Source: a virus
Virus record (IMG/VR): IMGVR_UViG_3300028368_000019
Location: 1-23,498 of that record
DNA length: 23,498 bases
Reading direction: 5' to 3' (one strand)
Below the pieces are notes generated by a model, which made no database searches, was not told the DNA's origin, and saw only the letters and a program-made list of their open reading frames with translations. The translations under genes were made by a program, and so were the position numbers. This document shows positions 5,414 through 23,448 of the stretch, one piece after another. The stretch's first letter is position 1, and each line of letters opens with the position of its first letter.

Positions 5414-6269
5414 GCCAAAGAACAGGAGACTCTTGATCGATGGTGATATTCTTGTTCACATGGCTTGTTGGCAAAAACCAGCATCTAAGGCTGACTTAGA
5501 AGAGATGGAGTGGAGAGGTGCAAGTCTTAAGGAGATAGAAGCAGCAAAACAAACCTATCAGCCTTCAATTGAACACGCTCAAGACCGTTTTGAGCATTTT
5601 GTAGAGCACATATTCGAGAGCCACTACATACCAGAAGAAGAGGCTGTGTACTCAATGGCAGTTGGCAACTCTCAGGATAACTTTCGAAAGAAAATACATC
5701 CAGAGTACAAGCTTCAAAAAGCAAGGGCAACATCTAATAAGAAAAGAGCGCCTTATATTGATGAGCTAAGGTTCTGGGTAGTAGATGTATTTGATGCCCA
5801 TTACTGTCAAGGTTACGAAGCAGATGACGCTATTGGTGTCTGGGCTACCAAGCTAGGGGAAGATAACTATGTTGTAGTCACGGTTGACAAAGACCTAGAC
5901 ATGATCCCCGGATATCATTTAGACCCAAAAACAGAGGCTAACGCTAAGAGGCGTTGGCACGTCAATGAGGAACAAGCCGATATATTTTTCTGGAAACAGA
6001 TGTTGACCGGCGACTCCATTGACAATATTCCGGGTATAGAAGGAATAGGACCAATCAAGGCAGGTAAGATTTTGTCGGGCTTGACAACACCACAAGAACA
6101 CAAAGAGGTGGTAGTTTCTGAGTATGGTCTTAAATACGGTAACGAGGGTTTCAAGAAGCTTTTGTTCAATGGTAGTCTCCTTCATATCTGGAGGACAAAA
6201 GGAGACATTTGGACATTTGACCCGGAAGAATACAAAGAAATCACCAATTCCCACACCGTTATTGTCTAA
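5391..6269 (+). CDS. 5'-3' exonuclease, FEN/T7 gp6-like
   Basis: Encodes 292 residues from ATG 5391; ATG 5385 is in frame but sits only 3 bases after the SD GAGG, whereas 5391 has normal spacing. FEN-family acidic clusters are all visible: IDGDILVH (D17, D19), GYEADDAIG (E143, D145, D146), TVDKDLD (D166, D168) and GDSIDNIPG (D208, D211), the last followed by the helix-hairpin-helix GIEGIGPIKAGKIL. A basic gateway region, RKKIHPEYKLQKAR, precedes them. These bind two metal ions and hydrolyse DNA or RNA from 5' ends, removing primers and, in T7, degrading host DNA. Its place between polymerase and primase-helicase fits. Confidence 0.93.
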   Translation: MQEVIQYKPKNRRLLIDGDILVHMACWQKPASKADLEEMEWRGASLKEIEAAKQTYQPSIEHAQDRFEHFVEHIFESHYIPEEEAVYSMAVGNSQDNFRKKIHPEYKLQKARATSNKKRAPYIDELRFWVVDVFDAHYCQGYEADDAIGVWATKLGEDNYVVVTVDKDLDMIPGYHLDPKTEANAKRRWHVNEEQADIFFWKQMLTGDSIDNIPGIEGIGPIKAGKILSGLTTPQEHKEVVVSEYGLKYGNEGFKKLLFNGSLLHIWRTKGDIWTFDPEEYKEITNSHTVIV

Positions 6270-6753
6270 GGACAACCTAGGCCACTGGTCATTCCGAAGA
6301 AAATTTAGAACTTCGGAGTGGTTTGGGTTTGTCTATTGTATCACAAGAAAAAGTGACGGTAAATTTTACATTGGCAAGAAAGTGTTTAGGTATAACGGAT
6401 TAAAGAAATCACCTAAATACGGAAAAGAACATTCTTGGAGAACCTATGCGGGTTCGTCTAAAAATCTTAAAGACGATATGAACAAATTGGGAAAAGACGC
6501 ATTTGAGTTTGAGATAATTGATCTCTACAAAACAAAAGGTGGTCTTTACTACGGAGAGGCTTACCTGCAAATGCTCTCTAACTCTATAACCTCTACCCTT
6601 CCTTCGGGGGGGTACGCTTCATATAATCGTGTTATATCAGCAATTAAATTTGTTCCTCACGAAGACGTTTCCTCGGCTACAAAAAAGTATGCTGCTAAAA
6701 TCAAACGTAAGATCCTTGAAAGGAATAAGAAAAATGGAATACAAAGTAGTTAA
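6262..6753 (+). CDS. GIY-YIG endonuclease, probably a free-standing homing endonuclease
   Basis: Counting from TTG 6262 the protein has 163 residues. The GIY-YIG core is clear: GFVYCITRKSDGKFYIGKK (residues 22-40), WRTYAGSSKNLKDDM (Arg60), and GLYYGEAYLQM with the likely catalytic Glu99. The C-terminal tail is basic (KYAAKIKRKILERNKK) and suits DNA binding. Seg-type enzymes of this fold cut DNA and spread their own genes into related phages. The start is uncertain: no ATG precedes the domain outside the exonuclease gene, the TTG lacks an SD, and it overlaps the exonuclease stop by 8 bases, so reinitiation is likely. It splits the exonuclease from the helicase gene, as an inserted element would. 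Confidence 0.85.
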   Translation: MSKDNLGHWSFRRKFRTSEWFGFVYCITRKSDGKFYIGKKVFRYNGLKKSPKYGKEHSWRTYAGSSKNLKDDMNKLGKDAFEFEIIDLYKTKGGLYYGEAYLQMLSNSITSTLPSGGYASYNRVISAIKFVPHEDVSSATKKYAAKIKRKILERNKKNGIQSS

Positions 6754-6893: not shown

Positions 6894-9611
6894 ATGCCCA
6901 AGTATAATCAGATTTGCCCCGCTCATGGGGGTAACAGCTTCACAGTCTTTGATGATGGTGGTGGTTACTGTCATAATGCAGAATGTAGAGCAAAGTTTAA
7001 ATCAGGGTCGTTTGATCCCGATACTGGAGAGGAAATGGGTAGCGGAGAATATAAAACAAAGGAGGAATACTCTAAGAAACCAAAGGGTTGGTCTGATCGT
7101 AAAGACCCTAAGTTTGCCAAAGCTGTATTTGATGCCTATGACTCGGATAAATACGAGTTGAAGAAAATATCTCTACGAACAATGGAGCTATACAACTGTA
7201 AAGTATCCTACTTTGATGATGGGGACCAAGAAGCAGTTTATTATGCCTATAACATTGATGATGGTATTCCAAAAGGCTATAAGAAGAGAGTTCTACCTAA
7301 GGATTTCTCTGAAGGCACAGTAGGTGAAATGAAAGGCTTGTTTGGTTGGGGTCTGTTCCCAAACAAGGGTAAGAGGGTAGTAATCACCGAAGGTGAAGAC
7401 GACTGTATGAAAGTACAAGATGGCAACTACGGCATCTATAAAAGACACTACCCTGTTTACTCTATTCAAAGTTCCGTTGCAACAAAAGACTTAATTGACG
7501 TAAGAGAGGAACTCAGGAAGTTTGATGAGATTGTTATCTGGTTTGATAATGACGGACCCGGTCAAAAAGCAACTAAAGAAGCCGCTAAGATACTTGGCTA
7601 CGACAAGGTTAAGGTTGTTCAGACAGTTGATGGTGTAAAGGATGCTTGCGACTATGCAAAAGAGTATGGCATAGACCAAGTAGTTTGGGCTATTGCTGAT
7701 GCTAGAGAGTATTCTCCTGCTGCTATTCTTAACGGTAAAGACCTCTGGGAAAGGCTAGAGGCATATAACAATAAACAGTCTGTACCTTACCCGGACTATA
7801 TGGAGGGTCTAAACGAAAAGCTTAGAGGTATACGAACTGGTGAAATCACCCTTTGGACCTCTGGCACAGGCTCTGGGAAGTCTACCCTAATGAGAGAGAT
7901 CGTTTACCACCTACAGCAGAGTGTCTCAAAGGAGACCGGAGAGGCATGGGTTCACTCCTCTAGTAGGGTGGGTATCATCAGCCTAGAGGAGTCACCAGAG
8001 GAGTACACTAGGAAGCTCTCTGGTATGGCTATCAACAAGAACCCCTCTTACGAAGATGTCCCTATGGAAGACCTGAGAGAAGGCTTTAATAAGGTCTTCG
8101 CAGATGGAGATATTCTGGTGTTGGACCATCAAGGCTCTATCAGCGACGGGTCTATTATGGACCACCTAGAGTTCATGTGTCTGAAAGGTTGTAAGTATCT
8201 TTTTATCGATCACATTACAATTCTTGTTTCTGAAGGTTCAGACGGGCTTACTGGTAATGAAGCCATTGACAAGATTATGAACAGTCTCTTGCATCTAGCT
8301 AAGAAGTATGATGTGTGGATTGGTCTAATCTCTCACCTTCGTAAAAGAAACAACGACCAGAAAACTTTTGAACAAGGTCGTATTCCGTCCCTAGACGACA
8401 TCAAAGGTTGTTTAGCTTATGACACAGAAGTATTAAGCTATAAGGGTAGAAAAGTAAAAGTACAAGACATCAAAGTTGGTGACAAGCTCATGGGTCCAGA
8501 CTCATTACCAAGAACAGTTATGAGCCTAAAAACCGGTGAACAACGTATGTATAAAGTATCTAACAAAACATCAAAAGATTATTTTATCTGTAATGAGAAC
8601 CATGTATTGACTCTATCAAGAAATAATAAAATGTTTGATATGAAAGTTAAAGACTTTTTAGATAAAAGTAAAAGCTTTCAGGTTAGGTGTAAACAACACT
8701 TCTCGGAAGGGTATGAACTAGATAATAAGGATCTTATTATACCCCCTTACTCTTTAGGGGTTTGGCTTGGAGGCGGTTCTAAGTCTGCTTTCAGGATCAT
8801 GGATGCTTCTGACTTAGGTATTGCAAAAAGGGTAAGCGAAGAATTGAATGCAACTTTGAAGACACCATCTAATAGAAAGAAAGAATATTTCAACTTTGTA
8901 ACTACTACAAAAGGTGATTTACTCAATAAATTAAAGCATATTGGTGTTCTAAATAACAAACACATTCCTCCTGACTATAAGTTTAACTCTAGGGAAAATA
9001 GAATCCAGTTAATTGCCGGGTTAATAGATACAGACGGAACTTACTCAAAGAAAGACAGGTGTTTTTATTTTTACCAGAAAGATAAAACAATGGCGGAAGA
9101 TGTAAAGGACATTGCAAGGTCTTTAGGTTTTTATAGTACTTGTCGCCCTCAAAAGATAACTTCAACAAGCTATTCTTCATATGGCTCTACTATTTACCAA
9201 GTAACGATTTCAGGTGCAATAGATGAGATACCTTGTCAAAAGTCATCAAGAGTACCACCTAGTAGGAAACGTAATGACTGTCTAAAAAGAGGAATTATCA
9301 TTGAGAAACTTAATGAAGGTAGATACTATGGCTTTACCTTAGACGGAGACGGTAGGTTCTTATTGGGTAACCATATAATCACTCACAATTCTGGTTCTAT
9401 CAAACAGATTTCTTTCGACGTCATTGGCTTTGCAAGAAACCAAGAGTCAGACGACGAGAAAGAGCGAAACACTATGATGCTAAGTGTACTCAAGTGTCGC
9501 TTCACTGGCCAAACCGGCCCTGCTGGTAAGCTATATTACAATCATAAAACTGGAAGGATGCAGGCTGATACAGACAAGTTCATGAGAGTAGAAGAAATGA
9601 GAGAAAGCTAG
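6894..9611 (+). CDS. Fused primase-helicase (T7 gp4-like) interrupted by an intein
   Basis: Precursor of 905 residues; without the intein 578, close to T7 gp4 (566). An N-terminal zinc-binding motif is formed by C8, H11, C26 and C31. The TOPRIM primase core shows VVITEGEDD (E166) and IVIWFDNDGPG (D218, D220). The helicase has Walker A GTGSGKST (324-331), Walker B KYLFIDHITI and IGLISHLRKR. It makes primers on the lagging strand and unwinds DNA ahead of the polymerase, as a hexameric ring. The intein (residues 506-832) sits between Gly and Ser in the conserved KGSGSIKQIS helicase motif, so splicing must be accurate for activity. SD AAAGGAG precedes the start. The extein catalytic motifs looked for here are intact. 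Confidence 0.95.
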   Translation: MPKYNQICPAHGGNSFTVFDDGGGYCHNAECRAKFKSGSFDPDTGEEMGSGEYKTKEEYSKKPKGWSDRKDPKFAKAVFDAYDSDKYELKKISLRTMELYNCKVSYFDDGDQEAVYYAYNIDDGIPKGYKKRVLPKDFSEGTVGEMKGLFGWGLFPNKGKRVVITEGEDDCMKVQDGNYGIYKRHYPVYSIQSSVATKDLIDVREELRKFDEIVIWFDNDGPGQKATKEAAKILGYDKVKVVQTVDGVKDACDYAKEYGIDQVVWAIADAREYSPAAILNGKDLWERLEAYNNKQSVPYPDYMEGLNEKLRGIRTGEITLWTSGTGSGKSTLMREIVYHLQQSVSKETGEAWVHSSSRVGIISLEESPEEYTRKLSGMAINKNPSYEDVPMEDLREGFNKVFADGDILVLDHQGSISDGSIMDHLEFMCLKGCKYLFIDHITILVSEGSDGLTGNEAIDKIMNSLLHLAKKYDVWIGLISHLRKRNNDQKTFEQGRIPSLDDIKGCLAYDTEVLSYKGRKVKVQDIKVGDKLMGPDSLPRTVMSLKTGEQRMYKVSNKTSKDYFICNENHVLTLSRNNKMFDMKVKDFLDKSKSFQVRCKQHFSEGYELDNKDLIIPPYSLGVWLGGGSKSAFRIMDASDLGIAKRVSEELNATLKTPSNRKKEYFNFVTTTKGDLLNKLKHIGVLNNKHIPPDYKFNSRENRIQLIAGLIDTDGTYSKKDRCFYFYQKDKTMAEDVKDIARSLGFYSTCRPQKITSTSYSSYGSTIYQVTISGAIDEIPCQKSSRVPPSRKRNDCLKRGIIIEKLNEGRYYGFTLDGDGRFLLGNHIITHNSGSIKQISFDVIGFARNQESDDEKERNTMMLSVLKCRFTGQTGPAGKLYYNHKTGRMQADTDKFMRVEEMRES
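8409..9389 (+). mobile_element. Intein with LAGLIDADG domain, first catalytic Asp replaced
   Basis: In-frame insertion of 327 residues. Block A begins at the splice Cys506 (CLAYDTEVL); block B is CNENHVLTLS; the C-terminal splice block is GFTLDGDGRFLLGNHIITHN, ending His-Asn, with Ser833 as the first C-extein residue. All splicing nucleophiles are therefore present. The endonuclease domain has two motifs: LGVWLGGGSKSAF, where LG-x-x-x-GDG is expected and the Asp is Gly (GGC, one base from GAC), and IAGLIDTDGTYSK, intact. LAGLIDADG nucleases need one acidic residue from each motif, so cutting is probably impaired while splicing remains. The insert is visibly richer in A+T than the flanking exteins. 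Confidence 0.93.
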
Positions 9612-10106: not shown

Positions 10107-10478
10107 ATGAATATCTTTGACAGCACAACTATTGAAAATAGTGATTATGTCCCTGATCGATTTGGAAGAGAGATCAGGGTAGGTAACCATGTTATTTATT
10201 CTAAAGGTGGAATGGATGGACGAATTTATGTAGGAATTTGTCTCAAAGTTCTACCAGTTACAAAGAAGAGATGTAATGCAAAAGCTGAGTTAGGGCTCTT
10301 CTACCTAGGTGACGAGAGAATAGACCAAAAAGTTCTGTTTAAGGTAACCCCTTTTTCTAAACGGACCCTCATCCTAGCTGAGGACTGGCTACCAGCAGAA
10401 AAAAGGTACAACGGACCACCTCTAGAAGAGGTGCAACTTGTTGAAAAAGAAGGGAAATACCTCCCAAGAGACCTTTAA
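10107..10478 (+). CDS. Unknown protein, 123 residues, beta-rich
   Basis: Starts two bases after the stop of the membrane-protein gene; the SD is weak (GAGAATG). The central part, FGREIRVGNHVIYSKGGMDG followed by IYVGICLKVLP, has the look of an SH3-like or KOW-like small beta barrel seen in various phage proteins. The C-terminal part is LILAEDWLPAEKRYNG and a polar tail. No named family can be given. Confidence 0.65.
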   Translation: MNIFDSTTIENSDYVPDRFGREIRVGNHVIYSKGGMDGRIYVGICLKVLPVTKKRCNAKAELGLFYLGDERIDQKVLFKVTPFSKRTLILAEDWLPAEKRYNGPPLEEVQLVEKEGKYLPRDL

Positions 10479-22296: not shown

Positions 22297-22642
22297 AATG
22301 ACTGATAAGGAATTCGATCAATGGGTGGCTGCACTCCGCAGTGGTAAGTACCAGCAAATACAAGAGACACTTATGGGTGTTTCAGAGTTTGGTGAGACAG
22401 GTTATTGCTGCCTTGGTGTACTTAATAATTTGTTTCATCTCGGCCCTATGGAAGTTGAGGGTCCTAATGAAAATGGTTTTACTTTTGAAGGACACGATAT
22501 AACCTATAACCACATAATAAAATTCACCCAAGACTTTAAAATATCAGAAATTGCTATAGAAATGAATGAAGGAGGTGAATCCTTTAGTGAGATTGCAAAT
22601 GCTCTAGAAGAATACTATTATAGCAAAGGAAAACATAAATGA
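22283..22642 (+). CDS. CCLGV-type phage protein of unknown function
   Basis: Encodes 119 residues, SD AAGGTGA. The hallmark W-x-x-A-L-R-S-G-K-Y-x-Q followed by GYCCLGVLNNLFHLG is shared by many small phage proteins with no known role. The C-terminal half (HDITYNHIIKF, ISEIAIEMNEGGESFSEIAN) holds a short sequence resembling a helix-turn-helix, as often seen in this group. Ends with ATGA overlap into the repeat gene. Confidence 0.7.
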   Translation: MTIAKMTDKEFDQWVAALRSGKYQQIQETLMGVSEFGETGYCCLGVLNNLFHLGPMEVEGPNENGFTFEGHDITYNHIIKFTQDFKISEIAIEMNEGGESFSEIANALEEYYYSKGKHK

Positions 22643-23448
22643 AAAACCTAACACAAGCAGATGTCGTCCGCCTTTTTGAGGATGCGGGTCTGACGATAGA
22701 CATTCGCGGATCGCTCCGAGTTACCCACAAAACAGGCACATTTCTTTTTTGCCACGCGCCTGTTCCTGATTATGGACCGCCAGCGCGACGATCAACACAG
22801 GGAAACAGACAGATAAAAGAGCAAACTCACGATTTCGGGGACGGCAACGGCCCCGTTCCTGCGCACAGGCACATCAAAGGTGGCGGGTGGGTGGCTGATA
22901 CGGCTAACGTACATAATAGCGCGTACATTGGAGAAGATGCGCTGGTCTACGGCAATGCGCTGGTCTACGGCGATGCGTGGGTCTCCGGCAATGCGCTGGT
23001 CTACGGCGATGCGTGGGTCTCCGGCAGTGCGCGGGTCTACGGCAATGCGCTTGTCTACGGCGATGCGTGGGTCTCCGGCAATGCGCGGGTCCGCGGCGAT
23101 GCGCTGGTCTACGGCAATGCGCTGGTCTACGGCGATGCGCTGGTACACGACAATGCGCTGGTCTACGGCAATGCGCGGGTCTACGGCGATGCGTGGGTCT
23201 CCGGCGATGCGTGGGTCTACGGCAATGCGCTGGTCAAGCGCGGGGAGTACACGTCTACGCCTACAAGCATAACCCGATCAGATGGGTACATGTTCACCTT
23301 GCAATCGGACGGATCGATTGTCGCTGGGTGCCGCGACTTTACGCCTGACGAGGCGGAAGCCCATTGGGGCCACCCTAAGCACCACAAACATCGTGAAAGC
23401 ATGGCAATTGTCACCGCTCTGAATGCAATCGCTGCTGAGCTACAGTAA
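22639..23448 (+). CDS. Hexapeptide-repeat (left-handed beta-helix) protein, GC-rich
   Basis: Encodes 269 residues. An N-terminal domain of about 90 residues leads into 16 consecutive hexapeptides of type A-[LWR]-V-[YS]-G-[ND] (residues 101-196), with degenerate ones on both sides (ANVHNS, AYIGED, ALVKRG). Such repeats form a left-handed beta-helix prism. A C-terminal domain follows: SITRSDGYMFTLQSDGSIVA, GCRDFTPDEAEAHWG, ESMAIVTAL. Similar proteins occur in phages and prophages with no assigned function; lack of a transferase motif argues against an acyltransferase. It is markedly richer in G+C (about 60% in the repeat) than the genes to its left, suggesting recent transfer. SD AAAGGAAA. Confidence 0.8.
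   Translation: MKNLTQADVVRLFEDAGLTIDIRGSLRVTHKTGTFLFCHAPVPDYGPPARRSTQGNRQIKEQTHDFGDGNGPVPAHRHIKGGGWVADTANVHNSAYIGEDALVYGNALVYGDAWVSGNALVYGDAWVSGSARVYGNALVYGDAWVSGNARVRGDALVYGNALVYGDALVHDNALVYGNARVYGDAWVSGDAWVYGNALVKRGEYTSTPTSITRSDGYMFTLQSDGSIVAGCRDFTPDEAEAHWGHPKHHKHRESMAIVTALNAIAAELQ
22939..23226 (+). repeat. Tandem array of sixteen 18-bp units
   Basis: Units follow GCG-[CTG/TGG/CGG]-GTC-T[A/C]C-GGC-[AAT/GAT] with few substitutions (for example GTACACGAC at one unit). Runs of identical neighbours such as two successive GCGCTGGTCTACGGC units point to recent slippage or unequal exchange. Each unit encodes one hexapeptide, so copy-number change keeps the frame. Confidence 0.92.

Follow-up and report, generated by a model that had tools for sequence, protein, structure and literature searches.

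Introduction

The published homing cycle includes a stage at which inactive alleles stand beside active ones (PMC3229294, PMC8966425). Direct evidence for the model in which active and inactive alleles coexist has been called scarce (PMC3229294). The best-matching described system for the element reported here is PI-SceI (VDE), the VMA1 intein of Saccharomyces, and for the PI-SceI family in yeasts degeneration and patchy presence are described in work cited in PMC7925643. PhoVMA, a naturally degenerate intein, is inactive in vitro, and its cleavage returned after blocks C and E had been restored (PMC8966425). Since this rescue came through the active-site regions (PMC8966425), such a loss inactivates. 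In PhoVMA, both motifs are damaged, block E is truncated, and the case comes from one species.

Here, we analyzed an IMG/VR virus record of 23,498 bases, referred to below as the window. It carries an intein for which PI-SceI is the best PDB match by sequence (3.5e-15) and also by fold (E 2.9e-24; TM-score 0.78-0.83, by query length). A Hint domain and a two-motif LAGLIDADG endonuclease are common to both. The window intein differs from PI-SceI in its low identity (~20%), its host gene in a phage (a primase-helicase), its length of only 327 aa, and the replacement of one catalytic Asp. It resembles PhoVMA in that catalytic aspartates are lost and the fold is retained, but only one codon is hit, and this codon is polymorphic among near-identical phages.

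The nearest named relatives are inteins of SF2 helicases from Klebsiella, Salmonella, and Vibrio phages (JD001, SP-031, 1.009.O), which are 32-38% identical over the full length and have the same domain layout. They differ in host gene, many of them lie in Walker A (GK/T), and all those examined carry Asp at the catalytic position. Closer to the window are 14 allelic inteins (L158-L171; 57-63% identical), which are inserted in phage primase-helicases at the same site, DIKG/SGSIKQ. Asp is present in 13 of them and Asn in one.

Architecture of the Intein and Its Host Gene

The features of the locus are listed in Table 1. The host ORF matches phrog_239, DNA primase/helicase (3.1e-131; PHROGs), and its predicted product is a T7-type primase-helicase. 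The intein comprises 981 nt (327 codons), extends from Cys506 to Asn832 of the ORF with Ser next, and splits DIKG/SGSIKQISFDV within the conserved helicase core. The earlier note, made from the sequence, had placed an intein here at a Gly/Ser junction with Cys506 and His-Asn/Ser for splicing; both the coordinates and the residues proved exact. In the insert, Pfam detected Hom_end_hint (PF05203; 3.5e-21, above the cut-off), LAGLIDADG_3, and Hom_end. The splicing set (C1, H65, H326-N327, and Ser+1) is complete and unchanged across the near-identical population. By domain match, splicing residues, and predicted fold, the element is classified as a PI-SceI-type (Hom_end_hint) intein.

Table 1. Coordinates of the primase-helicase gene, its intein, and the residues discussed in the text.
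Feature	Position in the window	Strand	Evidence
Primase-helicase ORF, 905 aa, intein in frame	6894-9611	+	Toprim and DnaB_C (Pfam)
N-extein, 505 aa, ending ...PSLDDIKG	6894-8408	+	
Intein, 327 aa, Cys1 to Asn327	8409-9389	+	Pfam, PDB sequence and fold matches
Cys1, N-terminal splicing nucleophile	8409-8411	+	Same in every near-identical contig
Block B, N62-E-N-H65	8592-8603	+	N62 and H65 invariant in 58-sequence alignment
Intein codon 122, GGC, Gly in LGVWLGGGS	8772-8774	+	Aligned to PI-SceI D218
Lys184, pairs with PI-SceI K301	8958-8960	+	Nearly invariant in alignment
Asp209, second motif IAGLIDTDG, pairs with PI-SceI D326, intact	9033-9035	+	
His326-Asn327, C-terminal splicing residues	9384-9389	+	Invariant in alignment
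C-extein, 73 aa, Ser+1 first (SGSIKQISFDVIGFARNQ)	9390-9608	+	

Several observations concern the same gene and its surroundings. Variable sites in the C-extein comprise seven amino-acid-changing and one silent, clustered in the last ten codons. Adjoining the intein gene, between the exonuclease and primase-helicase genes, there is a gene for a free-standing GIY-YIG endonuclease of the SegE type (6205-6753, plus strand; PF19835, 1.4e-26), possibly a second homing element. A related 61-kb phage contig carries, at another location, a 108-bp segment (L149; G006:24781-24888) that matches window positions 7920-8027 in the helicase gene with 89% identity. The segment has no open frame and lies shortly upstream of a terminator-like G-rich hairpin with a T run.

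Two further regions of the window drew attention. At 10109-10142, the window lacks ~280 bp that are found in near-identical contigs (L003 4701-5017), and this segment holds a small ORF (MKTETIYQVDYRVKCVIEKMSG...). The gene at 22639-23448 (plus strand) contains numerous 18-bp coding repeats (YGDAWVSGNALV...), and its product is probably a hexapeptide beta-helix; the repeats are out of register when related contigs are aligned.

Catalytic Position of the First LAGLIDADG Motif

The first motif of the window intein is YSLGVWLGGGS, in which the Gly at position 122 is encoded by GGC. The earlier note had read the motif and the codon in the same way, and GAC, which it had described as one base away, is present in near-identical phages. 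In the phmmer alignment to PI-SceI, G122 falls on D218, D209 on D326, and K184 on K301. The second motif, IAGLIDTDG, had been called intact, and the alignment of D209 agrees with this. Modelling of the two LAGLIDADG helices had been proposed in the note as a check. In the structure model of the intein (mean pLDDT 93.8), helix 113-122 terminates in G122 and helix 195-209 in D209, the positions in which the two metal-binding aspartates would be expected.

For comparison, 73 other inteins were taken from viral contigs. Position 122 was Asp in 72 of them, Asn in one (L164), and Gly in none, whereas at position 209 there were 72 Asp and a single Gly (L199). Asp is thus the family residue, as the earlier note had stated, and its near-universal presence together with the absence of Gly indicates that Gly122 is not due to chance. 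Asp is also present in each of the aligned named inteins, which come from phages of Vibrio, Escherichia, Klebsiella, Salmonella, Pseudomonas, and Pantoea. An active two-motif LAGLIDADG homing endonuclease is expected to have an acidic residue at the ends of both helices, and the window intein lacks it at the first motif only (Gly122). According to the note, close active homologues with Gly would speak against its reading; by sequence, Gly was limited to the window and one near-identical contig, the other near-identical copies have Asp or Asn, and distant ones have Asp. The possibility that Gly is a natural active variant was rejected, as none of the 73 other inteins carries it. Two of these inteins show a single catalytic loss of their own: L164 (3001-3969) has Asn in its first motif, and L199 (3001-4041) has Gly in its second, which reads LAGIVDTGG.

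Three Alleles of the Catalytic Codon in Near-Identical Phages

A search for close relatives returned seven contigs whose inteins share 97-98% identity with that of the window. Four of them (L003, L005, L006, and L007) have GAC (Asp) at codon 122, two (L004 and L008) have AAC (Asn), and L002 shares GGC (Gly) with the window, which gives D/N/G of 4/2/2 across the eight near-identical sequences. The Asn intein of L004 (G003) and the Asp intein of L005 (G004) differ in 1 base out of 981, and this base lies in codon 122. All near-identical contigs are metagenome assemblies, and each of the three residues occurs in at least two of them, which makes an assembly error unlikely. Outgroup comparison makes Asp ancestral; therefore, Gly and Asn represent two separate single-base losses. 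In the four-gamete test, 312 of 4278 site pairs failed. The failures mean that the population recombines or that the assemblies mix strains, and the three alleles exist in either case. The element itself is of a known kind, but it is unusual that near-identical phages carry the same intein as Asp, Asn, and Gly alleles. No earlier report of such alleles was found in the open literature searched, which was a limited library.

A/G hypermutation or a diversity-generating element was considered as the source of the D/N/G codon and rejected, because the excess of purine transitions is genome-wide and not intein-specific. The excess is mild at fourfold sites (A/G 40/971, C/T 42/1549). On the coding strand, comparison of window positions 1-20700 with G001-G008 gave 390 A/G and 198 C/T polymorphic sites. 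Adjacent A/G pairs numbered 22 and C/T pairs 1 among the near-identical contigs, and the base following an A/G polymorphic site was A in 50% of cases, against a background of 35%. The richness of the coding strand in purine transitions hints at a strand-biased mutation process.

Selection on the Intein

Among the near-identical contigs, the intein had a pN/pS of 0.85, compared with 0.20 in the N-extein, 0.29 in the polymerase, and 0.24 in the ribonucleotide reductase. The ratio of amino-acid-changing to silent variable sites was 21:8 in the intein, i.e., 29 sites that are linked to each other, and 15:22 in the N-extein (Fisher p 0.013). The contrast held against three genes pooled (p 0.024) and was not significant against the polymerase alone (p 0.16). 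In two pairs of Asp-bearing relatives at the same site, the endonuclease domain had an omega of 0.08 (L158/L161) and 0.10 (L165/L169). The domain is strongly constrained in these allelic inteins, unlike in the window's clade, in which constraint has thus been relaxed.

The reading frame is open in all near-identical intein copies. Mean conservation at the changed intein positions was 0.44, against an expected 0.54 (p 0.044), and codon 122, with a conservation of 0.98, is a clear exception to this pattern. The amino-acid changes tend to spare conserved positions, so some constraint on the endonuclease domain persists. The domain is under relaxed constraint, a result that is weaker when set against the polymerase alone, and it is not decaying freely.

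Mobility and Occupancy of the Insertion Site

The window intein and the 14 allelic inteins were compared in pairs whose exteins are <90% identical. Intein identity exceeded N-extein identity in 89 of 93 such pairs, which indicates that the intein family has been mobile. For L165/L169, intein dS was 0.28 and the extein pS of 0.785 was saturated. Low intein divergence between saturated helicase genes points to a recent transfer of the element between these phages.

Of the near-identical phages, eight span the site, and every one of them carries the intein; with only eight sequences, its fixation is likely, not proven. A complete scan with the window-specific junction pattern found no empty site in near-identical phages, and none was found among the matches listed for a degenerate pattern. 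Many other phages have an empty junction, and their helicases are at most 54% identical among the matches listed; the closest empty-site helicase found belongs to phage DSS3_VP1 (54%). The phage population of the window appears to be saturated with the intein.

Discussion

Our results are most probably explained by a homing cycle at the stage between an active and an inactive endonuclease, in which the loss is polymorphic rather than fixed and the altered copies would no longer cut. The element would be a bifunctional PI-SceI-type intein placed in a helicase motif, whose Hint domain keeps the residues for self-splicing. Splicing is likely active because the intein interrupts an essential-type replication gene that is open and constrained. 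The intein would then splice out post-translationally and would most likely be retained because splicing is needed for the replication protein. The two-motif LAGLIDADG endonuclease most likely once spread the intein by cutting intein-free helicase genes. With one of the two metal-binding aspartates replaced by Gly in the window, double-strand cleavage, and hence homing, should be abolished. Few empty targets would remain, and alleles without the catalytic aspartate would persist next to the intact one. We infer that the Gly and Asn alleles are non-cutting, the Asp alleles cutting, and splicing functional. The best reading of the sequences is that active-looking and inactivated alleles coexist within one recombining phage population.

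The earlier note had proposed an intein caught after fixation and losing mobility. This is borne out in part by the relaxed constraint and by the result that no empty site was found in near-identical phages. The loss itself is polymorphic and the endonuclease domain partly constrained; since Asp, Asn, and Gly alleles segregate, loss of the endonuclease is not fixed.

A somewhat unlikely alternative is that inactivating alleles are favoured: cutting would be costly once all sites are full, and the D-to-G and D-to-N changes, having arisen separately, would have increased in frequency with constraint maintained elsewhere in the domain. It would account for two different losses at codon 122 and for the remaining changes, which spare conserved positions (p 0.044). 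A third Asn is found in the divergent relative L164, and in a published rock-paper-scissors model the active allele loses to the inactive one (PMC3229294). Under a simple mutation model, the probability that at least 2 of 21 amino-acid changes fall in either catalytic Asp codon is 0.009. The window was picked for its Gly, so the fair test is one further hit, for which the same model gives about 0.12-0.13. Moreover, single transitions take GAC to both codons, and transitions are the commonest change in these phages. A stronger form holds that active Asp alleles and independently inactivated Asn and Gly alleles are co-maintained in one recombining phage population by selection on the catalytic residue alone, with the fold kept for splicing and cutting repeatedly switched off. 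We consider such a natural rock-paper-scissors case doubtful.

It is improbable that the Gly or Asn allele is partly functional, acting as a nickase or a DNA-binding protein through D209 and the remaining lysine. Single point mutations can turn LAGLIDADG enzymes into nickases (reviewed in PMC3943268). The fold, D209, and K184 are intact in the window intein, but Gly is found in none of the 73 homologues. The nickase mutations of LAGLIDADG enzymes are not known to affect the metal-binding aspartates. Finally, sequencing or mixed-strain assembly artefacts are a very improbable source of the codon 122 differences: the contigs are all metagenome assemblies with partly shuffled site linkage (312/4278 pairs failing the four-gamete test), but Gly, Asn, and Asp are each represented by two or more contigs that differ in sample number, and strain mixing could move alleles between contigs, not create them.

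The homing cycle has mostly been inferred from comparisons between species. If the endonuclease is being lost as proposed, the decay of a selfish element would be visible here within one phage population. The alleles of the catalytic codon, including one pair that differs by that base only, would form a matched natural set for cleavage, splicing, and competition tests, and the frequency of codon 122 could be tracked in read data.
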